A DNA stretch of 64,000 bases from Deltaproteobacteria bacterium (GTDB lineage Bacteria; Myxococcota_A; Polyangia; Polyangiales; JADJMO01), in assembly GCA_025363655.1 (NCBI GenBank), contig JANYDK010000123.1, positions 62,001 through 126,000 on the forward strand, written 5' to 3'. Both the position numbers and the translations under genes were made by a program. How positions within the stretch are numbered: position 1 is the first letter of the stretch; each line of letters starts with the position of its first letter. This document shows, one piece after another, positions 43,838 to 55,588 of the stretch. The notes under the pieces are model-generated. The model saw only the letters and a list, made by a program, of their open reading frames with translations, made no database searches and was not told the origin of the DNA.

Positions 43838-44410
43838 GTGAGCTTCGACGAGCCGAATTGGGACGCCCCGATCGACGTCGACGCGTACTACACGGCAATC
43901 CCCGCCGCCGAGACGATGAAGGGCATGTTCCTCATCCCGGTGGTGCGCGCCGCCGCCGAACGTGGACACGCGCTCCCCGACGCGCGCGAGCGATATCTCC
44001 CGTTCCACGACTATCCGCTGCGGGAGCACATGAGCCTCCTCGTCGCCGCCGCGCGTGCGCTCTGGCCGCGCGAATCACTGCGACGCGGGCTACGAAGGCT
44101 CGGACGTGGCGCCATCGACGTGCTCTTGGACTCGACGGTCGGCCGCGTGCTCTGGGCCACCGCCGACGATCCGACGAGCGCCATCGAAGCGACGGTGAAG
44201 GCCTACGCCATCACGCAACCACGCTCGTCGGTCGTCGTCGTCGAGACCTCGCCCGAGAAAGTGATCGTGCGCGCCGAGCGAGTGCACTCGTTCCTCGACT
44301 CTCACCACATCGGCGTCTTCGAGGCCGCGCTCAAGAGAACCGGCATCCGCGGGAGCGTGACCCTGAAGGCGCGTTCCCTCTCCAGCGCCGACATTTGCTG
44401 TCGTTTCTAG
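43838..44410 (+). CDS. TIGR02265 / DUF2378 family protein
   Basis: A 190-residue protein of a family that is expanded in myxobacteria and has no assigned function. Markers are IPAAETMKGMFLIPVV, YLPFHDYPLREHMSLLVAAARALWP and RRGLRRLGRGAIDVLLDS. The start is a GTG at 43838. It has two Cys near its C-terminal end (ICC). It is transcribed away from the HSL hydrolase and ends about 190 bases before rpsU. Confidence 0.85.
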   Translation: MSFDEPNWDAPIDVDAYYTAIPAAETMKGMFLIPVVRAAAERGHALPDARERYLPFHDYPLREHMSLLVAAARALWPRESLRRGLRRLGRGAIDVLLDSTVGRVLWATADDPTSAIEATVKAYAITQPRSSVVVVETSPEKVIVRAERVHSFLDSHHIGVFEAALKRTGIRGSVTLKARSLSSADICCRF

Positions 44411-44964: not shown

Positions 44965-46437
44965 TCAGCGCCCTGTGACGAGAGCTGGCGAGAGCGGCGG
45001 GCCGCCCGGGGTGCTCGGATCGTGGGGAAGGCTTCCGCGCGGCGAGCGCAGGTAGATGAAGGGCGTGGCGTGGAGGAAGTTGGAGACGCGGGACGTGTAG
45101 ACGTCGGCGTAGCGCTCGACCTGCCTCGCGAGATGGCTCTTGTCGTTGCCGGCGCGCGTGAGGAGCCCCCAACGTGAGTTGGCGAGCTCGCCCGACGCCC
45201 TCGCCATCGGCGCGATCGAAGCGTCGATTTCCAGGAGGCGATTGCGCGTCGCGTGGATGTGCGCGTGCCACTCGGCCTCGGTGCCTTCGACCGGCGGACC
45301 ATAGCCCGCTTGCAGCCTTTGGAGCGAGAGCCGCGCCCAGGAGAGCTCGGCCTCGAGGCGCTCTTTTTCTTCCATCCGAGCTTTGAGGTCGACCTCGAAG
45401 GCGTGGAACGATTCGATGGCGCCGACCTCCGCCTCGAGCTCGCGGAGGATGAGCGCGGTACGCCAGCGGAGCACGCTCTTGGTGACGTGCACGTCGCCGA
45501 ACATGTGATCGCCGACGTAGAGAATTTCGTCGCCCGAGAGCCCGAGCGCACGCTCGACCTGCGCCGCGCTCCCTCCGAGATAGGCGACGCCGGTGCGCAG
45601 TCCGCTGACCGAGGGCCGGAGGAGCCCATCGTCGGTGGCGACCTCGAAGACCGGTCCTTGATAGGTGAAGAACTCGGGCTTGCGCGCGCCGACGATGATG
45701 ATGTCGAAGAGATCGCGCCAGGTCTTTCCCCCCGGGAGAAAGCCGTCGAAGGCGAAGGTCATCATCGCGCGCGTGTATTCCCACTCGCTGTTGGTGATGA
45801 GCATCAGCTTCTTGCCGGCGTGCTTCTGATCGAGGAGCGCGAGCGGGAGCTCGGTGTCGCGAACCACGAAGCGCTCGGGATCGGCGATGATCTCCCGCTT
45901 CAGCGCGCCGTCTTTGTGGATGCCGTCGGTGGCGACGCGCACGCGCTGGTAGAGATCGCGATAGCCCATCACGCCCGGCAACGCGCGCTGATCGAGGAGG
46001 TCGACGAGCTGGCCGTAGAGGCAGGCCTCCGAGAGCGAGAAGAGCGTGTTGAGGAAGACCCACCGCCCGTCGGCGAGATCGATGATCGTGCGCGCGTAGG
46101 TGGTGCGTTGCTCGTCGAACTCCATCACCCGCGTGCCGTGGAGCGCGCGCTTGATGAAGCCGAAGCGATTGGCCTTGAGCGTGTTTCCCAGCTCGGTGTC
46201 GATGATGAGGCCGCGGATGACCGCGTTCGGATCGAACTCCAGGTGGGCGACGGGCCAACCCGCGGCGACGAAGACGTCACGCACGCACTCGTACGCACGT
46301 CGCTCCCACACCTCGACGTGATAGTCGACGAGCGTGTAGTCCATGTCGTAGCCAATCGCGCGGATCGACCGCATGTTGAGCGTACGATTGCAGAAGACGC
46401 CGCGCCCCTTCGACGGCGGCTCGGGAGAGCGTTGCAT
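44965..46437 (-). CDS. HAD-IG family 5'-nucleotidase (IMP/GMP-type)
   Basis: A 490-residue HAD-superfamily 5'-nucleotidase related to the cytosolic IMP-GMP-specific enzyme. The nucleophile motif is D31-M-D33-YTLVDY, followed by motif II LITNSEWEYT and motif III/IV YVGDHMFGDVH. The N-terminal VFCNRTLNMRSIRAIGYD fits the family start and supports the ATG at 46437. The C-terminal 150 residues are helical with a coiled-coil-like stretch (ARMEEKERLEAELSWARL). It dephosphorylates nucleoside monophosphates. It is last in the run downstream of the radical SAM operon, 91 bases from the lipoprotein pair. Confidence 0.9.
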   Translation of the reverse strand: MQRSPEPPSKGRGVFCNRTLNMRSIRAIGYDMDYTLVDYHVEVWERRAYECVRDVFVAAGWPVAHLEFDPNAVIRGLIIDTELGNTLKANRFGFIKRALHGTRVMEFDEQRTTYARTIIDLADGRWVFLNTLFSLSEACLYGQLVDLLDQRALPGVMGYRDLYQRVRVATDGIHKDGALKREIIADPERFVVRDTELPLALLDQKHAGKKLMLITNSEWEYTRAMMTFAFDGFLPGGKTWRDLFDIIIVGARKPEFFTYQGPVFEVATDDGLLRPSVSGLRTGVAYLGGSAAQVERALGLSGDEILYVGDHMFGDVHVTKSVLRWRTALILRELEAEVGAIESFHAFEVDLKARMEEKERLEAELSWARLSLQRLQAGYGPPVEGTEAEWHAHIHATRNRLLEIDASIAPMARASGELANSRWGLLTRAGNDKSHLARQVERYADVYTSRVSNFLHATPFIYLRSPRGSLPHDPSTPGGPPLSPALVTGR

Positions 46438-46528: not shown

Positions 46529-47191
46529 TCAGTAGTAGCTGTCGTGGAGCGTGACCTTGGGGGCCGCTTTGCTCGTGAGATCGACCTCGACGCTGACGTG
46601 CTCGCTGCCACCGGTGCAGGAGGCCACGAGGGTGATGTAGACGTAGGTCTCGCCGACGTTGGGCGTGACTTCGAGGACCAGATTTTCGCCTGACCACGTC
46701 GTCTTGGTGATGGTTCCGGCCGAGATCTTCGGCGGATCGGTCTTCGACCAGCGATCGGCAAGACCGCGCGTGGCCTTGGGCAGGCTGAGCTCGAGGAACG
46801 TGCCGCGCCAGGAGATGCTCGCCTTCACCGTGGCGGCGAGGCCCGCGCATTTCGCCGGAGGCGGCAGCATGTCGACGACGCCGTAGCTGGGCCCCGTCGG
46901 CGGGAGCGGCGGCGCCGCATCGGTGATGACGACCGAGGGCGAAGGCGAAGGCGAGGGCGCGGGATTCGGCGGTTCGCTCTTCTTCTTGGTGACGTCGTCG
47001 TCTTTGCGAATCGGCTTCTCGCCGTCTTCCTTCGTGCACCCCGCGAGCGCTGCGGTCGTCGCCGCGAGCGCCATCAGACGACGCAAGTGCTCGATCGTCC
47101 GCGTGCGGGGCGCACCACCGGAGCTCACCTGCGTCGGGTCGGGCAACACTTCGGGCATCAGCCGGAGTCGGCGTTTGGTGTCTTCGCTCAT
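46529..47191 (-). CDS. Radical-SAM-linked lipoprotein, paralog B
   Basis: A 220-residue protein with an unusual N-terminus: a conserved cytoplasmic leader (KRRLRLMPEVLPDPT at 6-20, then GAPRTRTIEHLRRLM at 26-40) comes before the hydrophobic signal and lipobox (LAGC, C52). A Pro/Ser/Asp-rich linker follows, then the conserved block YGVVDMLPPPAKCAGLA (103-119) and a beta-rich C-terminal domain ending in LHDSYY. It is the close relative of the gene just upstream, three bases away. I recognise no known domain. The RR-containing leader may indicate Tat export; that is inference. Confidence 0.75.
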   Translation of the reverse strand: MSEDTKRRLRLMPEVLPDPTQVSSGGAPRTRTIEHLRRLMALAATTAALAGCTKEDGEKPIRKDDDVTKKKSEPPNPAPSPSPSPSVVITDAAPPLPPTGPSYGVVDMLPPPAKCAGLAATVKASISWRGTFLELSLPKATRGLADRWSKTDPPKISAGTITKTTWSGENLVLEVTPNVGETYVYITLVASCTGGSEHVSVEVDLTSKAAPKVTLHDSYY

Positions 47192-47194
47192 GGC

Positions 47195-47845
47195 TTAGAA
47201 CGCGTCGTAGAGGGTGATGACCGCGGTCCCCGGTTTGCTCACGTCGACCGAAACGTTGACGTGCTCGTCGCCGGCGGCGCACGAAGCGCTGACGTAGACC
47301 GAGACCAGCGGCGCGCCCGAATCAGGCACGATTTCCAGCACCAAATCATCACCGATCCAAGTCGTCTTGGTGATCTTCCCGCTGTAGGCGGTCGGCGGAT
47401 CTTTGCGCGACCACTTGCCGTCGGGGCGCGTCGTCTTCGGCAGCTTGAGCTCCACGACCTTGCCCTTCCAGGTGGCGGTCGCGGCGACCGAGGCGGCGAG
47501 GCCCGCGCACTTGGCCGGGGGTGGCATCGGATCGACGACGCCGTAACCGATGGTCCCGGTGTCGACCGCGGTCGCGCTCGCGGTCGCCGTCTCGGCCGTC
47601 GTCGGGTCGGGCGGCGTGCTCTTCTTCTTCGCCGTCGAATCGTCTTCCTTGCGAATCGGCGGTGCGCCCTCTTTCGTGCACGCGACGCCGAGCGCTGCGG
47701 TCGTCGCCGCCATCGCCATCAACCGACGCATGTGCTCGAGCGTGCGCGTCCGCGGCGCACCCTGCGCGTGGTGCTGCTTGGTCGGATCGGGCAGCACCTC
47801 CGGCATCAGCCGAAGCCGCCTCTTGCTCGCCGGCTCGTCCGTCAT
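47195..47845 (-). CDS. Radical-SAM-linked lipoprotein, paralog A
   Basis: A 216-residue paralog of the next gene, with the same layout: leader KRRLRLMPEVLPDPT, GAPRTRTLEHMRRLMA, hydrophobic signal with Cys at 56 (GVAC), low-complexity Thr/Ala/Pro linker, the conserved block YGVVDPMPPPAKCAGLA (101-117), and a beta-rich domain ending LYDAF. The leader and the YGVVD block are nearly identical in the two copies, while the linkers are unrelated, so both blocks are under selection. The ATG overlaps the stop of the radical SAM gene (ATGA), giving translational coupling. Confidence 0.75.
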   Translation of the reverse strand: MTDEPASKRRLRLMPEVLPDPTKQHHAQGAPRTRTLEHMRRLMAMAATTAALGVACTKEGAPPIRKEDDSTAKKKSTPPDPTTAETATASATAVDTGTIGYGVVDPMPPPAKCAGLAASVAATATWKGKVVELKLPKTTRPDGKWSRKDPPTAYSGKITKTTWIGDDLVLEIVPDSGAPLVSVYVSASCAAGDEHVNVSVDVSKPGTAVITLYDAF

Positions 47846-49488
47846 CGCATGCCTCCGGCGGCGAGGCGGGCGGTCTGGAGCGCGGTAGCGACGCGATCGC
47901 CGACGTCGGTCAGCGGCTTGCCGTGCCCGATCGCCCGCTGCAGCGCGTAGGCCAGGTCTTTCGCCCGCTCGCCGATTTCGAGCTCCTTTTTCCGCAGCTT
48001 CGGCGAGATCTCGGCGATCAGATGGTGATCTTGCTCGCGCGTGCTCCCGCGCGTGACGTGATCGACGATGCGATCGAGCGCGTCGCAGGAGTCCTTGGCG
48101 AGCTCGCGGCTGAGCGTCTTGCCTTCGAGGAGCCACTCGGGCCGGAAGATGTCGCCGTGGAAGTGCTTGCACACCTCGATGTCGAAGCGCGTGCCCATGA
48201 TGCGATTGTTGAGCGCGTCCTCGCCGAAGTTGCGCGCGTGGAAGCACTGCATCGTCAGCCGGAAGACGCGCTCGACCTCGACGCTCGCGAGATCGTAGTC
48301 CCGCTGCATCCAATCGCCCTTGGTGCGCTTTTCCTGCAGCATCCGATGGAGCAAGGGGGTGCCGGCGTAGAGCTCGACCCGCCCGAAGTTGGACGGGTAC
48401 TCGGCGGCGAAGCGCATGAACGCGATGTTGGTGCGGAGGCTCTCGATGGTGGTGTCGGGATCGAACACCAACATGTTGAAGCAGGTGTAGAGATCGAGCT
48501 CGCGCACGACCTTGAAGGCGTCGCGGTTCTGCTTCGTGCCCGACCAACGACGTAACGTCTTCAACCCCTGATCAGCGTCGGTCTCGACCCCGATGTAGAC
48601 GCGGATGCACTGCAGCCTTTCGCGGAGGATGCGAAAGACCTCGGGGTCGACGTCGGTCGGCCTGGCCTTCACCACCGTCGCGAATTTGCCGATATTTCGT
48701 GCGTCGAGCGCGTCGGCGAGGGCGGTGAAGCGCTCGCGGTTGCGACGATGGCCGGGGACGAAGAAGTTGTCGTCGTGAAAGACGAAGACGTCGACGTTGC
48801 GCTCGCGCTTCAGGGCCACCATCTCGTCGGCGACGTCCTCGACCTCGCGAAGCCGATAGCGCTTGCCGGGGAGGCTCTGCTCTTGCCACGCGGCGATGCA
48901 GCAGAACGAACAGTTGGCATAGCAGCCGCGACTGCTGACGAGCGGTGCGATGCCGTGATCGAAACATCGCGCCGGCTCACCACGACGATCGGGCCACTTC
49001 AGCTTGGCGAGATCGGGAAGCGCGGGGTGCTCGGTGAGGTAAGGCTCGCCGCGTGCGTCGCGGAGGCCGAGCCCCGGAAGGGCGGAAAATGAAGCGCCGG
49101 ACTCGATCGCCTGCACCAGCGCGAGCATCGTCTCTTCGGCCTCTTGGCGGACGATCGAGTCGACCTCGGGAAACTCGCGGAGCACGTCTTCGGTGGCGAA
49201 GGTCGCGAAGTGCCCGCCGAGCGTGATGTGGCCGGCATAGCCCGACTCGCGGAGCGCGACGGCGAAGGCGAGAAAATCGCGTGCGCGCCATTGGAAGGCG
49301 AGCGAGATGCCCACCACCGTCGGCGGCGTCTCGGCCTGGAGAATGGTCGCGAGGGCGACGCCGAACTCTCCATCGTGGCTGAAGGGGACGATCTCCGCCT
49401 TCACGCCCGACGCCTCCAACGTCGAGGCGATGTAGCGCAGGCTGAGGTTCTCTTCGATCTCGGGACCCACGAGCGCGACCCAGGTCAT
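47842..49488 (-). CDS. B12-binding-domain radical SAM enzyme
   Basis: A 548-residue protein. Residues 1-130 have the alternating strand/helix pattern of a cobalamin-binding Rossmann domain (WVALVGPEIEENLSLRYIAS, GHITLGGHFATF), without the classical DxHxxG. The radical SAM core carries C189-x3-C193-x2-C196 (RGCYANCSFC) for the 4Fe-4S cluster and FVFHDDNFFVPG downstream. The C-terminal 120 residues are helical. The family includes methyltransferases and cyclases acting on unactivated carbon. Two paralogous lipoproteins follow in the same operon, making them candidate substrates or partners. It is divergent from maf, with about 150 bases between. Confidence 0.88.
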   Translation of the reverse strand: MTWVALVGPEIEENLSLRYIASTLEASGVKAEIVPFSHDGEFGVALATILQAETPPTVVGISLAFQWRARDFLAFAVALRESGYAGHITLGGHFATFATEDVLREFPEVDSIVRQEAEETMLALVQAIESGASFSALPGLGLRDARGEPYLTEHPALPDLAKLKWPDRRGEPARCFDHGIAPLVSSRGCYANCSFCCIAAWQEQSLPGKRYRLREVEDVADEMVALKRERNVDVFVFHDDNFFVPGHRRNRERFTALADALDARNIGKFATVVKARPTDVDPEVFRILRERLQCIRVYIGVETDADQGLKTLRRWSGTKQNRDAFKVVRELDLYTCFNMLVFDPDTTIESLRTNIAFMRFAAEYPSNFGRVELYAGTPLLHRMLQEKRTKGDWMQRDYDLASVEVERVFRLTMQCFHARNFGEDALNNRIMGTRFDIEVCKHFHGDIFRPEWLLEGKTLSRELAKDSCDALDRIVDHVTRGSTREQDHHLIAEISPKLRKKELEIGERAKDLAYALQRAIGHGKPLTDVGDRVATALQTARLAAGGMR

Positions 49489-49639
49489 GATGCCTCCGTC
49501 GAACGGGTTCGAAGGTGTACGAGTGGTGACCGAGAACGATCTTGGCTTCGAAGCAGACCCGATCGCGACGAGATGGGGAAGCGACTGGAAAATGACTCGA
49601 CGGATCGCGCACTTGCGCCAACCGTGATAGTTGCGCCGC

Positions 49640-50275
49640 GTGCGAACGCTCGTCCTCGCCTCGCAGAGCGTGCATCGTCGCGCCCTCCTCGACGCCGCCG
49701 GAATCTCCTACGTCGCGGCCACGCCGCCCTTCCACGAAGACCTCACGCGGCCACTCTCGCCGACCGACCTGGCCATCGCCTTCGCCCGTGGCAAGGCCGA
49801 GAGCCTCGCGAGCGCGCACCCCGACGCGTTGATCCTCGGCGCCGATCAGGTGGTCGAGCTCGACGGTGAGGCGTTGGGCAAGCCGGGCACTCTCGAGCGC
49901 GCGGTCGCCCAACTCCTCCGCATGCAAGGTCGTGAGCATCGATTGCTGACCGCCGTCGCGCTCCACGATCCCGTCGCGGGCGTGACCACACATGCGCTGT
50001 CGGTGCATCGAATGAAAATGCGTCCGCTCACCCGCGAGCTCGCCGAGCGCTACGTCGCCGCGGAAAGGCCGCTCGACTGCGCCGGCAGCTACAAAGTCGA
50101 GTCGGCGGGCGCGCTACTCTTCGAGGAGATGACGGGCGACGATCACACCGGCATCATCGGACTGCCGCTCACGGTGATGTCTCGTCTCCTCCGCGACGTC
50201 GGCGTCGACCTGCTCGCGAACCGACTCGCGAACGGCCCCGCGCACCCTTCCGCGAAACCTACGAGAAGCCCATGA
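49640..50275 (+). CDS. maf: Maf-family nucleotide pyrophosphatase (YceF-like)
   Basis: A 211-residue house-cleaning pyrophosphatase. LVLASQSVHRRALLDAAG replaces the usual S-P-R-R with S-V-H-R-R, as in the YceF (7-methyl-GTP) branch; FARGKAESLA, GADQVVELDG, KPGTLERA and CAGSYKVESAG complete the family. It hydrolyses non-canonical nucleoside triphosphates. The GTG at 49640 gives the conserved N-terminus; a TTG three codons upstream is possible. Its stop overlaps the hslO start (ATGA). Confidence 0.9.
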   Translation: MRTLVLASQSVHRRALLDAAGISYVAATPPFHEDLTRPLSPTDLAIAFARGKAESLASAHPDALILGADQVVELDGEALGKPGTLERAVAQLLRMQGREHRLLTAVALHDPVAGVTTHALSVHRMKMRPLTRELAERYVAAERPLDCAGSYKVESAGALLFEEMTGDDHTGIIGLPLTVMSRLLRDVGVDLLANRLANGPAHPSAKPTRSP

Positions 50276-51150
50276 TCACGACCGATCACGTCCTCCGCGC
50301 CATCACCGACGACGGCGCCTTTCGCGTCATCGCCATCAACTCGACCGAGACGGTGCGCGGCGTCGTCGCGGCGCAGAAGGCGCTCGAGCGAGGGAAGGAC
50401 ACCGAGGAGCGCGAGGACCTGGCGCGCATCGTCGGCGATCTGTCGACCGCCACCATCCTCACGCGTGAGCTGATGTCTCCCGATTTTCGCGTGCAGGGCA
50501 TCCTCACGAGCGACGACGGCAGCCGCATCGTCGCCGACGCACACCCCGGAGGCGCCACCCGCGGGCTCGTGCAGCTCGCCAAGGGAACGACGCGTTTCAC
50601 CTTCGGTCCCTCGTCGCGCTTGCAGATGATGCGCTCGCTGCGCACCGGCGCGCTTCAGCAAGGTCACGTCTCGGTGCCGCCGGGCACGGGTCTCGGCGGC
50701 GCGATGATGGAGTACCTGCAGACGTCGGAGCAGCTCATCTGCACCGCCGCGCTCGGCACCATCGTTCGTGACAATCACGTACACGCGGCCGGCGGTTGGA
50801 TCGTGCAGCTCCTCCCGGAAGCCTCGCGTGGACCGCTCGAAGTGATGACCAATCGCTTGACGGCCATCGCGCGCATCGAACATTTGCTCGAGGAGAACGC
50901 GGCCGATCCGGCGGTGCTGCTCGGCGACATCCTCGCGGGCATGCCGTTCACGCGCACCGCCGAAGCCTCGCTCCGCTTTGGCTGCACCTGCAGCGAAGAG
51001 CGCGTCATGCTCGGGCTCGCGACGATCGGGCGCGACGAGATCAAACAGATGATCGAGTCCGGCGAGCAGCTCGACATCGCCTGTGATTACTGCGGGAAGG
51101 CCTACGACGTCTCGCCCGAGAAGCTCCGCGCGCTGCTCAGCGACAACTGA
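50272..51150 (+). CDS. hslO: Redox-regulated chaperone Hsp33
   Basis: A 292-residue Hsp33. The C-terminal redox switch has the zinc-binding cysteines C238-x-C240 and C271-x2-C274 (FGCTCSEER, ACDYCGKAY). The N-terminal core contains GDLSTATILT, GPLG-like loops and PPGTGLGGAMMEYLQTSEQ. On oxidation the zinc is lost and the protein becomes a holdase for unfolded proteins. It is translationally coupled to maf. Confidence 0.94.
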   Translation: MITTDHVLRAITDDGAFRVIAINSTETVRGVVAAQKALERGKDTEEREDLARIVGDLSTATILTRELMSPDFRVQGILTSDDGSRIVADAHPGGATRGLVQLAKGTTRFTFGPSSRLQMMRSLRTGALQQGHVSVPPGTGLGGAMMEYLQTSEQLICTAALGTIVRDNHVHAAGGWIVQLLPEASRGPLEVMTNRLTAIARIEHLLEENAADPAVLLGDILAGMPFTRTAEASLRFGCTCSEERVMLGLATIGRDEIKQMIESGEQLDIACDYCGKAYDVSPEKLRALLSDN

Positions 51151-51250
51151 GGTCATGTGACGCGTCGCGAAATCGCGCGCGTTCCGGACGGATGGGCCGT
51201 TGGCGCGCCTTTCGTTTGCGAGGGAGCGGCGCTCCAATAGGCGCCCTCGA

Positions 51251-52786
51251 ATGAAGTCTGCACCGGCGAGCACTCCGCCCCTCGACGCGCGCGTCGGCAC
51301 GCGTCTCGCGGGTGAATTCACGCTCGATGCGGTCCTCGGACAGGGCGGCATCTCGACGGTCTACGCGGCGACCAACCGGCTGGGACAGCGCGTCTGCGTG
51401 AAGTTGATGCGCGAAGAGCTGCGCGACGATCCGATGGTGCGTGCGCGCTTCCTCCGCGAGGTCGACATCGCCGCCAGCATCGCCCACCGCGCGTGCGTGC
51501 CGATCGTGCGCACGGCGAGCGGTGAAGATGGTCTGCCGTTCCACGTGATGGAGCTGGTCGACGGTGATCCGCTCGATCGCGTGTGGCGAAGGCTGGGGAG
51601 GCGAGTGCCGATCCAAGGCGCGCTTCGTATCGCCGAGCAGCTCCTCGACTTGCTCGAAGCCTGCCACGCCACCGGCGTCGTCCACTGCGACATCAAACCG
51701 GCGAACCTCATCCTCGACGCCACCGGAGCCCTTCGCGTCATCGATTTCGGCGACGCCTATGCTCCCCGCATCGCGCCGCTCGACGCGCTCGCCGCCGACG
51801 CCGCCGTGGGAACGCCTTCGTTCATGGCGCCCGAGCAGGTGACGGGCGAGGTCGAGCTCGACGGACGCGTCGACGTCTTCGCGGTCGGCGCGCTCCTCCG
51901 CACGTTGCTCACCGGCAAGCTCCTCCATCGCGGAAAATCCCCCGATGAATCGCTTCGCATGGCCGCGACCGAACGCGTTCCACCGCTTCGCGACGACGCG
52001 CCCGAGCTCTCGCCGCTGCTCCTCGCCGTCGTCGATCGCGCGCTCTCGTACTCTCGGGACGATCGCTATTTCAGCGCGCGCGAGATGCGAGCCGCAGTGA
52101 CGCCGCTGATCACGCGCGACGAGCGTGGCTCGACACGTTCCGCGCGCTCCGCCGACCTTCGTGACGACGTCGAGTCGGGCGAACGGATGCGCACCACCAG
52201 CGCACGCGCGCTTCCCCGCGTCGCTGCTGCCGGAAGCCTCGGCGTGACGCCCCTGCCGCAGCTGGTGCGCATCGTCCACCAGCGTCACCTCCACGGCTCG
52301 CTGCTCCTCACCGCGACGGGCGATCGTCGACGCGTCCGTTTCTACGATGGCGCGCCGGTCTGCGGCGTCGTCGGTGAGCGCGAGGTGCTGGCCGAATTGG
52401 AAGAGCTCGGCGCGCTCGGCGACGGCGCCACCTTCGAGTTCCTCGTCGAAGAGCCCATCGCCGCCGAAGGTGAAGAGCCGACGCTCGATCCACTCGCCGC
52501 CGTGCTCGCTGCGTCCCGACGCTTCCGCGGACGGCACCTCGCCGCATCCCTCGCGCGGCTCGGACAACGTCCTTTGCGCCTCCATACGCATGCGGCGCTC
52601 GAGCGCTTCTGCCTTCGCGCCGACGAGGAACGCGTCGTCGCGCTCCTGCGCAAGGGCGCCCCCAATCACACCGCGTTGCACGCCGCTGGCCTCGCCTCGC
52701 GCCCAGTCGTCGACGCCGTCCTCTACGCTCTCGGTGCCACGCACCACCTCGACCTCGGCAGCGCGACCCGTCCGCACGGCATCTGA
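51251..52786 (+). CDS. Serine/threonine protein kinase with DUF4388/PATAN-like C-terminus
   Basis: A 511-residue soluble Hanks-type kinase. The glycine loop GQGGISTVY (30-38), K51, the catalytic loop VVHCDIKPANLIL (H145-C146-D147, a non-RD form), DFG at 165-167 and APE at 193-195 are all present, so it should be active. After a Ser/Arg-rich linker (about 295-335) a second domain begins SLGVTPLPQLVRIVHQRHLHGSL, matching the DUF4388/PATAN module common in deltaproteobacterial signalling proteins. There is no membrane helix or sensor domain. The start is the ATG at 51251. Confidence 0.92.
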   Translation: MKSAPASTPPLDARVGTRLAGEFTLDAVLGQGGISTVYAATNRLGQRVCVKLMREELRDDPMVRARFLREVDIAASIAHRACVPIVRTASGEDGLPFHVMELVDGDPLDRVWRRLGRRVPIQGALRIAEQLLDLLEACHATGVVHCDIKPANLILDATGALRVIDFGDAYAPRIAPLDALAADAAVGTPSFMAPEQVTGEVELDGRVDVFAVGALLRTLLTGKLLHRGKSPDESLRMAATERVPPLRDDAPELSPLLLAVVDRALSYSRDDRYFSAREMRAAVTPLITRDERGSTRSARSADLRDDVESGERMRTTSARALPRVAAAGSLGVTPLPQLVRIVHQRHLHGSLLLTATGDRRRVRFYDGAPVCGVVGEREVLAELEELGALGDGATFEFLVEEPIAAEGEEPTLDPLAAVLAASRRFRGRHLAASLARLGQRPLRLHTHAALERFCLRADEERVVALLRKGAPNHTALHAAGLASRPVVDAVLYALGATHHLDLGSATRPHGI

Positions 52787-52799
52787 GATCTCGCGCCCG

Positions 52800-55106
52800 T
52801 CAGTCGACCTTCACCTTCGTCACCACGTCACCCTCTGCGAGCGCGGCGAAGGGGCCGCTCGCCTTGCCGAGCCACGAGTAGCTGCCTTCGAGGTGTGGCG
52901 TGCGCGCGAGGGTGACGAAGAGCTGGCTCGATCCGGTGTCGCGTCCCGCGAGGGCGACGCCGATGGAGAGCGGTTCGAATGCGATCGGTGCCGTCTCGCA
53001 ACGCAACGCCTGGTGCGCGCCGCCATAGCCGTCGCCGAGTGGATCGCCGAATTGGACGACGAACCCGGGCACCACCCGATGAAAGACGATTCCATCGTAA
53101 AAACCAGCAGCGGCGAGCTCGGCGACGCGCGCGACCGCCAACGGCGCGTACGTCGGATCGAGCGTCAACGTGAGCGCGCCGACGTCGGTCTCCAGGGTCA
53201 GCACATGGCCCTTCGGCGACGCGGCTGCGAGAGAAGCGGCAGCGCCGAAGTCGGTGACGACGTCGCACGCATGCGCGGTGCCCGGCGGATCGAGATGATC
53301 GAGCGCCTGTCGCGCCGCTCGTCGCAGCGCCGGTCCACGATGCCCACAGAGGCGGAGGAGGAACGCCCTCCCCTTGGCGAAACGCAATGCTCCGACCGCA
53401 CCGGCGAGATCAATCTCGATCTCCGCGTCGGCCTCCTCGAACGAGCGGGCGAGCACTCCCTCGAGGGCCTTCTCGACCGCGGGATCGACGCCTTTTTTCG
53501 GCTCCAACGTCGCTGGCCCGGGCGCCTTCGGATCCATCCCTTGCTTGATTTGCTCCTTCGGCGAGAGCGCCAGGTCGTGATCGGCGAGGCTCGGCCTTTC
53601 GGTCAGCGCCTGCGCGGCGGCCGCGACCCAGCCGAGCTCCTTGGCACCGAGCGCGCGGACGAGGATCGCCGAAGCGGCCTCGGTCTCGGCGTGCTTGGCG
53701 AGGATCGAGAGCGCGCGCTCACGCACTCGCAAGGCGCCGTCTTTCGCCAGCCGCAGCAAGAGCTCGCGTCGTTCATCGACGATTTGCGTGTGATCGAGCG
53801 TCGTCAGTCGAGCATCGTCGCGAAGGGCATCGAGCTCGGCCCCGAGCGCGGCAGGCAAGCCCGCGTCGTGGGCCGCACAGCGCACCAGCTCGCTGTCGGC
53901 GGGCGCGCTTGGATGGAGCCCGACCGCGGCGAGACAACGCAAGCTCGCCACTCGCCGCGCCACCACCGGATCGATTCCCACGGCGATCGGCGCGAAGCCC
54001 GTCGGTAGGAACGCGCGCAGGCTGCTGGTGACCGTCTTCGTCGCTGGGCGTTCTGCGAGCAACTCGAGCGCGACGCGCAGCGGACCGAAGTGTGGCGTGA
54101 CCCAGGCCGCAGCCGTCAGCGTCGTCGGTACCTCTCGCGTGGCGAACGCCGCGATCTCCGCATCACCCTCGACACCTTGCTTGTGGAGCGCGCGAATCGC
54201 CTCCACGAGCCGCTCCGGCGGCGACGTCGCGTCGGCCAGCACCGGGCGCAAATCGGCTGGTTTTCCCGCGTCTTCACGACCGAGCGCGCGAATCGCGAAG
54301 AGCCGGGCCTGCGCGTCGCCCCCGAGATGCGCTCGGGCGACCTCGCCGAGTCCGGGAGCCGGCGGACGACCACTCCAGTCGCCGCGCCCGAACGGATAGA
54401 GCGCCTCCGGAAGCATCGGCCCCGCTTCACCTCCGCGCGCCGCCTCGACGAGGAGCTGGGCGATGTCGTCCTCGAGCCCGCGATCGTGTTGCGCGATGGC
54501 GCCGAGGGCGAAGCAAGCCGCACGCGCGCGCACGACGTCGCCGCGGAGCCAGCGGGCGAGCTCACGCGACGCATCGATGCCACCGCACCGCCCGAGCCCC
54601 CACGCGAGCGCCGACCAAGGCTCGAGGACGCCGCTGGTTCCGCCATGTGTCTCCCAGGTGAGCGCACGCGCCGCGAGCGCATGGACGATCTGCGCGCGTT
54701 CTTCACGACCGAGATCGGGCTCGACGTCGCAGCGAAGCGCGATGCCGTACGCGGCCCAACCCACGACCTCCGGGTCTTCGTCGCTGAGCGCGTGCCCGAG
54801 CCTTTCTACGGCTGTTTTATCGCCGATTTGCGCGAGCGCGCGGGCCGAAGCGCGGCGGGCGACGACATCCGAGGACGACGCGAGCGACGACGGTACCGCG
54901 GCCGCCTCGCGTCGATCGGAGGCCTCACGCGCCGTCAGCAAGTCGCTGCTGGAGACTCCGGTGAATGAGGTCGAGCTCGAAGCGAACGCGCTCGAGGGGG
55001 CTGCCGCGTCGCCAGCGCTGCCGTTTTTCGGACCGTCGCGACGACAAGCGAACCCACAGGCCAGCCCGAGCCCGACGACGAGGAGCGGACGGAGCGCGCG
55101 CGTCAC
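52800..55106 (-). CDS. HEAT-repeat protein fused to cyclophilin peptidyl-prolyl isomerase
   Basis: A 768-residue envelope protein. The GTG at 55106 overlaps the stop of the upstream gene and gives a hydrophobic signal ending in two cysteines (GLACGFAC), so a lipoprotein is likely. Residues about 90-610 contain irregular HEAT-like helical repeats (ARRASARALAQIGDKTAVERL, LRVRERALSILAKHAE). The last 140 residues are a cyclophilin domain with FHRVVPGFVVQFGDP, GSSQLFVTL and HLEGSYSWLG, retaining the catalytic Arg in FHR. It probably helps fold or hold envelope proteins, the HEAT array acting as a docking surface. Confidence 0.88.
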   Translation of the reverse strand: MTRALRPLLVVGLGLACGFACRRDGPKNGSAGDAAAPSSAFASSSTSFTGVSSSDLLTAREASDRREAAAVPSSLASSSDVVARRASARALAQIGDKTAVERLGHALSDEDPEVVGWAAYGIALRCDVEPDLGREERAQIVHALAARALTWETHGGTSGVLEPWSALAWGLGRCGGIDASRELARWLRGDVVRARAACFALGAIAQHDRGLEDDIAQLLVEAARGGEAGPMLPEALYPFGRGDWSGRPPAPGLGEVARAHLGGDAQARLFAIRALGREDAGKPADLRPVLADATSPPERLVEAIRALHKQGVEGDAEIAAFATREVPTTLTAAAWVTPHFGPLRVALELLAERPATKTVTSSLRAFLPTGFAPIAVGIDPVVARRVASLRCLAAVGLHPSAPADSELVRCAAHDAGLPAALGAELDALRDDARLTTLDHTQIVDERRELLLRLAKDGALRVRERALSILAKHAETEAASAILVRALGAKELGWVAAAAQALTERPSLADHDLALSPKEQIKQGMDPKAPGPATLEPKKGVDPAVEKALEGVLARSFEEADAEIEIDLAGAVGALRFAKGRAFLLRLCGHRGPALRRAARQALDHLDPPGTAHACDVVTDFGAAASLAAASPKGHVLTLETDVGALTLTLDPTYAPLAVARVAELAAAGFYDGIVFHRVVPGFVVQFGDPLGDGYGGAHQALRCETAPIAFEPLSIGVALAGRDTGSSQLFVTLARTPHLEGSYSWLGKASGPFAALAEGDVVTKVKVD

Positions 55107-55588
55107 GTCGACCTCGCGGCGAGACGAACGTCGACGACCACCGCCACGCGTTCGTGGAGCGCGCGAATCACCGTGCGAAAAAGCGAGACCGGGGGCGCAA
55201 TGGCGGGGACGCCGACGACCGAGAGGCCGAGGGCGCGCCCGATCGTCAGTGCGCGCGGAAGATGCCAATCACACGTCGCGATCGCCACGGTCCCCACGCA
55301 GGAGAGACGCCGGAGCATCCCCGCCGCTTCCACGAGGTTCTCCCGCGTCGTGAGCGACAGACGGTCCCGCCGCACGCGTGCTCGATCGACCCCACCGGCG
55401 ACGAGCCCACGCGCGATCACGTCGGCCTCGACGTGACCATCCCAGCCTCGACCGCCACAGGCGACGACGATCGCGCGAGGCCAATGGGAGGCCGCCATCG
55501 CCGCGGCGTCGACGCGCCGTGCGAGCGCACCGCGGAGCTGGCCCTGACGGACGCGCGCGCCGAGGACGAGGATCGCCACCGGCTCCAC
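55103..55588 (-). CDS. YdcF-like DUF218 domain protein
   Basis: A 161-residue protein of the DUF218 type: ILVLGARVRQGQLRGALARRVDAA, ACGGRGWDGHVEADVIARGL, LTTRENLVEAA and IATCDWHLPRALTIGRALGL. Members such as YdcF and SanA are implicated in envelope barrier function and bind nucleotide-like ligands. It starts at GTG 55588, with GAGG five bases before; GTG 55594 is the alternative. There is no signal peptide. Its stop overlaps the next gene's GTG, and it lies seven bases from the exonuclease stop, so four minus-strand genes form one operon. Confidence 0.82.
   Translation of the reverse strand: MEPVAILVLGARVRQGQLRGALARRVDAAAMAASHWPRAIVVACGGRGWDGHVEADVIARGLVAGGVDRARVRRDRLSLTTRENLVEAAGMLRRLSCVGTVAIATCDWHLPRALTIGRALGLSVVGVPAIAPPVSLFRTVIRALHERVAVVVDVRLAARST

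Follow-up and report, generated by a model that had tools for sequence, protein, structure and literature searches.

The window, by which the whole stretch of 64,000 nucleotides analysed here is meant, carries on its minus strand an operon (49488-46529) in which a gene for a B12-binding radical SAM enzyme is followed by genes for two paralogous lipoproteins, A and B. The locus raises the question of whether the enzyme acts on the lipoproteins encoded beside it and, if so, at which part of them. The comparative analysis described below makes it probable that the enzyme is a protein-modifying B12 radical SAM maturase with A and B as its substrates, acting on Asp/Glu-x-x-Pro cores of exported lipoproteins.

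The operon and its products

The three minus-strand genes lie in the order enzyme (47842..49488, 548 aa), lipoprotein A (47195..47845, 216 aa) and lipoprotein B, the paralogue of A (46529..47191, 220 aa); all coordinates given below for parts of these genes are likewise on the minus strand. The stop codon of the enzyme gene and the start codon of lipoprotein A overlap in ATGA, and lipoprotein B starts 3 bases past the stop of lipoprotein A, a layout that had been reported in a preliminary description of this DNA and is confirmed by the coordinates. Searches for promoters and terminators gave no signal beyond chance. The neighbouring genes (44965-46380, minus strand, and 49631-52786, plus strand) encode a 5'-nucleotidase family protein, Maf, Hsp33 and a protein kinase. 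At the closest relative (L035) the flanking genes are unlike those of the window operon, so only the enzyme-lipoprotein unit has been kept. At 52800-55268 (minus strand) the window also encodes a predicted lipoprotein in which HEAT repeats are fused to a cyclophilin-type prolyl isomerase.

Two domains were detected in the enzyme using Pfam, a B12-binding domain (PF02310, 1e-11; residues 11-124, 49117..49458) and a Radical_SAM domain (PF04055, 2.6e-13), and no peptide-binding RRE domain was found by the same search. Together with the cluster motif CxxxCxxC (C189/C193/C196, 48901..48924), which is invariant among 25 aligned relatives (alignment A3), these are the features of a B12-dependent radical SAM enzyme, and the assignment agrees with the clade profile and tree described below. 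The AlphaFold model of a fused relative (L053) showed the B12, radical SAM and helical parts with high confidence and a disordered tail (pLDDT <40), with no core placed in the active site. The solved folds nearest to this model were those of OxsB, TsrM, MgmA, CysS, AprD4 and TokK.

Both lipoproteins have, as judged by sequence, the hydrophobic signal and following lipobox cysteine of bacterial lipoproteins (ALGVAC in A, with C56 at 47678..47680; ALAGC in B, with C52 at 47036..47038). Ahead of the signal are leader block 1 (A, KRRLRLMPEVLPDPT, 47780..47824; B, 47132..47176) and leader block 2, the proposed enzyme-recruiting motif (A, PRTRTLEHMRRLMA, 47714..47755; B, PRTRTIEHLRRLMA, 47069..47110). 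Behind it, both proteins contain a core block YGVVDxxPPPAKCAGLA, the proposed modification site (A, YGVVDPMPPPAKCAGLA, 47495..47545; B, YGVVDMLPPPAKCAGLA, 46835..46885). In the AlphaFold2 model of lipoprotein A, a helix over residues 31-51, upstream of C56, comprises leader block 2 and the signal, and a beta sandwich over residues 123-215 forms the C-terminal domain (47198..47494; pLDDT >90 over most of 123-215), for which a structure search returned no significant PDB match. No Pfam or NCBIfam family scored above its cut-off with A or B, and a search for plasmid relatives of lipoprotein A found none.

Compared region by region, A and B are 70% identical in leader 1 (15/15 residues over KRRLRLMPEVLPDPT), 80% in leader 2 plus signal and 85% in the core, versus 52% in the aligned part of the linker and 45% in the C-terminal domain, so that leader and core are their best-conserved regions. 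The near-identical leader blocks and core on either side of the signal were thus present as described earlier, whereas the earlier statement that the linkers have no similarity was overstated. Within leader block 1 (15 codons) the two genes differ by 9 silent changes and no replacements, and within the core (17 codons) by 5 silent changes and 2 replacements; the silent changes show that the sequence is being kept at the protein level. Chance or recent duplication was rejected as the cause of the likeness, because leader and core have been kept despite these changes. A profile search of the 9.0-Mb source genome found two copies of this lipoprotein type, A and B, and no further protein that scored well with the precursor profile.

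Fused and split relatives of the enzyme

A profile of the enzyme clade was built from the radical SAM domains only, cut ahead of any tail (alignment A3); since it holds no lipoprotein or tail sequence, whatever is encoded downstream counts as independent evidence. A scan of GTDB genomes yielded 26 loci, which belong to Myxococcota, Acidobacteriota, Planctomycetota and one proteobacterial MAG, and more were added by searches at the level of the order (179 genomes) and of the phylum (379 genomes). After removal of duplicates the clade comprised 127 members at a threshold of at least 240 bits; leaving aside fragments of members, no background enzyme scored above 196 bits.

Most relatives of the enzyme, which the preliminary description had overlooked, are enzyme-tail fusions. 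In approximately 84 of the 127 members the chain continues into a C-terminal hydrophobic segment, usually with a lipobox, and then into a proline-rich tail. This count combines 69 members passing a strict lipobox filter with 15 loci accepted by inspection for a clear anchor and tail, some of which end at contig ends and one of which is frameshifted. None of 29 background B12 radical SAM enzymes has such a tail, and the lone match in the control bin came from a fragment of one of the clade's own proteins (L138).

Short cores are repeated in most tails and differ from branch to branch (PPPDPLPPP; VVDPPPPDAG; EMAPxP/EAAPP; EAAPPP/EYAPPP), the type of core tracking the enzyme branch on the tree; a few fused members lack the pattern of their branch. 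In the three large branches, tails contain on average 4.4, 2.7 and 8.0 cores versus 0.31, 0.23 and 0.23 in shuffled sequences, figures that describe the repetition and are not a test, since the patterns were picked after the tails had been viewed. The excess over shuffles is far smaller for the bare [DE]xxP element and weak in some branches. One distant fused branch (L139-L149) is without proline-rich repeats, its tails mostly ending in a PCLASFEVCPEYAIAE-like sequence (CPEYAIAE-like), and possibly has a different target. The fused tail of L120 carries TSP3 repeats.

Among the 43 members without a tail, 35 have next to them, downstream or upstream, a gene whose product is exported and contains a related core, the partner of L125 being the least certain. 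The remainder consists of one member with a candidate partner on another contig, four cut by contig ends and three for which no partner was found (L142, L175 and L177). The candidate partner on another contig (L219) was found with the precursor profile in the same genome as its enzyme (L050, G092:C503) and has, besides the leader, three VVCDPMP cores; as this MAG is fragmented, the two loci may or may not lie truly far apart. A protein encoded behind this orphan precursor (L219:400-1356) has 31% identity to a protein near the window operon (43870-44400), a likeness that may be a link or a coincidence. At another locus (L043:1888-4330), five overlapping tandem precursor genes follow a single radical SAM gene, which is frameshifted in the MAG; two of the precursors (L043a, b) are short, approximately 110 aa, and end in the core, unlike the products of the window operon. 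At L040, VVCDPLPPP cores occur three times in tandem, and two of the three are recent copies at the DNA level.

The pairing of enzyme and exported protein recurs in Myxococcota, Acidobacteriota and Planctomycetota. Strong matches to the precursor profile in the 179 genomes of the order stand beside a clade radical SAM gene with two exceptions: in G056 the match lies at a contig end, and in the other case the genome has a clade radical SAM gene, but on a different contig. The paralogues are therefore not widespread without the enzyme, nor, given the adjacent partners and fused tails counted above, is the enzyme gene conserved beside unrelated genes, both of which had been named beforehand as observations that would speak against a link between the two.

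The tree placed the window enzyme within a 23-member split branch (SH-aLRT 100) and the members with an upstream partner in another branch (SH-aLRT 100). Six changes between fused and split states were counted on this quick tree, the root of which is not fixed. The second split branch (L123, L126, L127, L129-L132, L134 and L167) has its lipoprotein gene upstream of the enzyme, a core of the form xxPPxGxPAEPxQ[LI]C and a distinct N-terminal leader, MRKLxVxxxxxGG. Partners and tails are varied elsewhere as well (L036:7643-8209, L045:7586-8146, L049:3630-4271 and L120): one has a PEGA domain, and two have seemingly ordinary non-lipoprotein signal peptides.

Leader, core and the proposed route of modification

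The separate substrates of the window branch carry the leader consensus [PVA]RxR[TV]xxH[LM]xxL immediately ahead of the signal peptide. A looser form, [PVAT]-R-x-[RKS]-[TVIA]-x-x-[HR] before a hydrophobic segment, was present in 27 of the 27 standalone precursors of this branch. A strict form, R.[RKS][TV]..[HR][LM]..[LM], was present in 19 of the 27 and did not occur in any of the 69 fused tails or of 2000 shuffled N-terminal regions. The motif is absent exactly where enzyme and substrate share one chain, which is the best evidence for the role proposed for it, namely recruitment of the enzyme. KRRLRLMPEVLPDPT forms a second, less general leader element that is missing from several precursors. 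In an alignment of 18 precursors with a mean identity of 23%, only Met1, R32 of the leader and D105 of the core are invariant (numbering of lipoprotein A), and V103, P108, C113 and C189 are conserved in at least 90%.

The gene arrangement, the conservation of leader and core, the fused forms and the association with the enzyme clade point to a route in which lipoproteins A and B would be synthesised beside the enzyme and bound by it at their cytoplasmic leaders, mainly through [PVA]-R-x-R-[TV]-x-x-H-[LM]-x-x-L before the hydrophobic signal. The V-x-D-x-x-P core would be modified while the lipoprotein is still cytoplasmic. Sec export would follow, and signal peptidase II would remove the leader together with the signal, leaving a protein at the surface or in the periplasm with its modified core close to the lipidated N-terminus. 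Radical SAM chemistry requires the reducing cytoplasm, so modification before export would be the natural order, as far as knowledge of the class can indicate. In most relatives the proposed substrate forms a C-terminal extension of the enzyme, set off by a lipoprotein signal inside the chain, and a leader would then not be needed. The earlier suggestion that the leader is recognised and the core modified is in this way supported by comparative genomics, from which we infer the modification itself.

Most characterised B12 radical SAM enzymes are methylases, and C-methylation of the acidic residue, or of a neighbouring Pro or Val, is for this reason the leading guess at the reaction, offered tentatively; closure of a ring, or another radical reaction known from the class, is an alternative. 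A thioether to the Cys of the core was considered but is improbable as a general reaction, since the branch with PPPDPLPPP cores has no such Cys. It is nearly as likely as not that the clade as a whole is a class of self-modifying, self-exporting B12 radical SAM proteins. These would modify, in the cytoplasm, the repeated Asp/Glu-x-x-Pro cores in their own tails, be cut by signal peptidase II at the lipoprotein signal within the chain and display the modified polyproline segments at the surface, with the window operon as a split, leader-guided branch. Fusion of the tail to the enzyme could instead serve localisation.

The same evidence bears on three other explanations. The tail or lipoprotein might be a membrane anchor or partner of an enzyme whose target at the membrane is a lipid or small molecule; the exported part would then serve only localisation or signalling. 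HpnR and HpnJ act on hopanoids, and both, with BchE, are among the best NCBIfam matches of the clade, though far below cut-off; a hydrophobic segment in the fused tails, and folded domains in some tails and in all window-type partners, would also suit an anchor. An anchor would not explain why short cores are repeated and branch-specific, why one enzyme has several tandem partners, why cores stand at the extreme C-terminus of short peptides (L043a, b) or why separate partners have the leader motif and fused tails lack it, and we regard this explanation as unlikely. It is very unlikely that the leader motif is an enzyme-independent export or sorting signal, Tat-like or for surface retention, and the pair a conserved operon of other function. 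Like an n-region, the motif is basic and lies directly against the signal peptide, and A and B read RRLMA at this point, but the RR pair is not conserved, for which reason a Tat signal was rejected as the cause of leader conservation; moreover, the motif is absent from the fused tails, which are likewise exported, and A and B are alone in the window genome in scoring well with the precursor profile. That A and B are ordinary duplicated lipoproteins standing behind a radical SAM gene by chance is scarcely credible: Pro/Thr-rich lipoproteins are common in Myxococcota, but the pairing recurs in three phyla and is absent from the 29 background enzymes.

If the maturase reading is true, leader-guided radical modification reaches beyond small peptide natural products and includes exported lipoproteins, and the export signal doubles as the means of leader release. 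If the self-modifying reading is also true, the fused forms belong to a large class, not described before, of proteins that modify and export themselves. Fusions of a B12 radical SAM enzyme with its candidate substrate offer a one-gene test system, and the many clade members with varied cores offer a ready series for studying recognition of, and action on, acidic, proline-rich segments.

Comparison with known systems

Membership of the enzyme in a named B12 radical SAM family (BchE, HpnR, ApyD, TIGR03975, Mmp10 or CUAEP) was rejected, as NCBIfam scores were far below the cut-offs. A search of open-access full-text literature found no account of lipobox-tailed B12 radical SAM enzymes or of this gene pair, an absence that is provisional given that scope. 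Provisionally, then, the arrangement matches no described family in the libraries and papers searched, in agreement with the preliminary description, which had not recognised the pair as a described RiPP or maturase system.

The B12 radical SAM maturases of RiPPs (ApyD, NF050148; rSAM_ocin_1, TIGR03975; TsrM; KedN5-like) have in common with the clade the B12-binding and radical SAM architecture, the fold and a substrate encoded nearby. ApyD forms beta-methyltyrosine on a precursor peptide (PMC10635010). Clade members score 70-95 bits with NF050148 (cut-off 750) and 38-69 bits with TIGR03975 (cut-off 282), and they differ from these maturases in two respects: no RRE, a domain usual though not universal in RiPP pathways, was found, and the candidate substrates either form part of the enzyme chain or are separate exported lipoproteins that contain a folded domain. 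As in a RiPP system, an encoded precursor with a separable leader and core stands beside the enzyme (27 standalone precursors), but the product is not a short peptide: the window products keep their folded C-terminal domain, and the term RiPP suits the mechanism better than the product. Mmp10/MgmA (TIGR04014; structural match 9ccb), the glutamine C-methyltransferase of methyl-coenzyme M reductase, is likewise a B12 radical SAM enzyme, and its target is a side chain in a protein of full size; it differs in having a single cytoplasmic target and no leader, repeats or export signal, and clade members score 46-68 bits against its cut-off of 360.

Borosins (OphMA and relatives; PMC8429565) combine the modifying enzyme and the core in one polypeptide, and split forms exist. 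The same kind of fusion, with enzyme and core repeats in one chain, is found in the approximately 84 fused relatives and not in the window enzyme; borosin enzymes are classical backbone N-methyltransferases without a lipobox or export tail, whereas the clade enzyme is a radical SAM enzyme. By analogy, the window system appears to work like a leader-guided RiPP maturase and the fused relatives to resemble a borosin-type enzyme-substrate fusion.

HpnR, HpnJ and BchE are among the top-scoring curated families, yet reach at most 104 against cut-offs of 481-650, and their substrates are small molecules. The CUAEP/CCAEP-tail radical SAM (seleno)protein family (NF040546) is named for a conserved C-terminal tail; its tail motif differs, and clade members score 29-43 bits against a cut-off of 500. 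Conserved C-terminal ends were seen in the split enzymes of the clade: those of the window type end in PLTDxGDRVATPLQ (47842-47930 in the window) and others in CxHxRP or CDHAPVKGIPV, all absent from fused enzymes and possibly representing a leader-docking element or the remnant of a tail.
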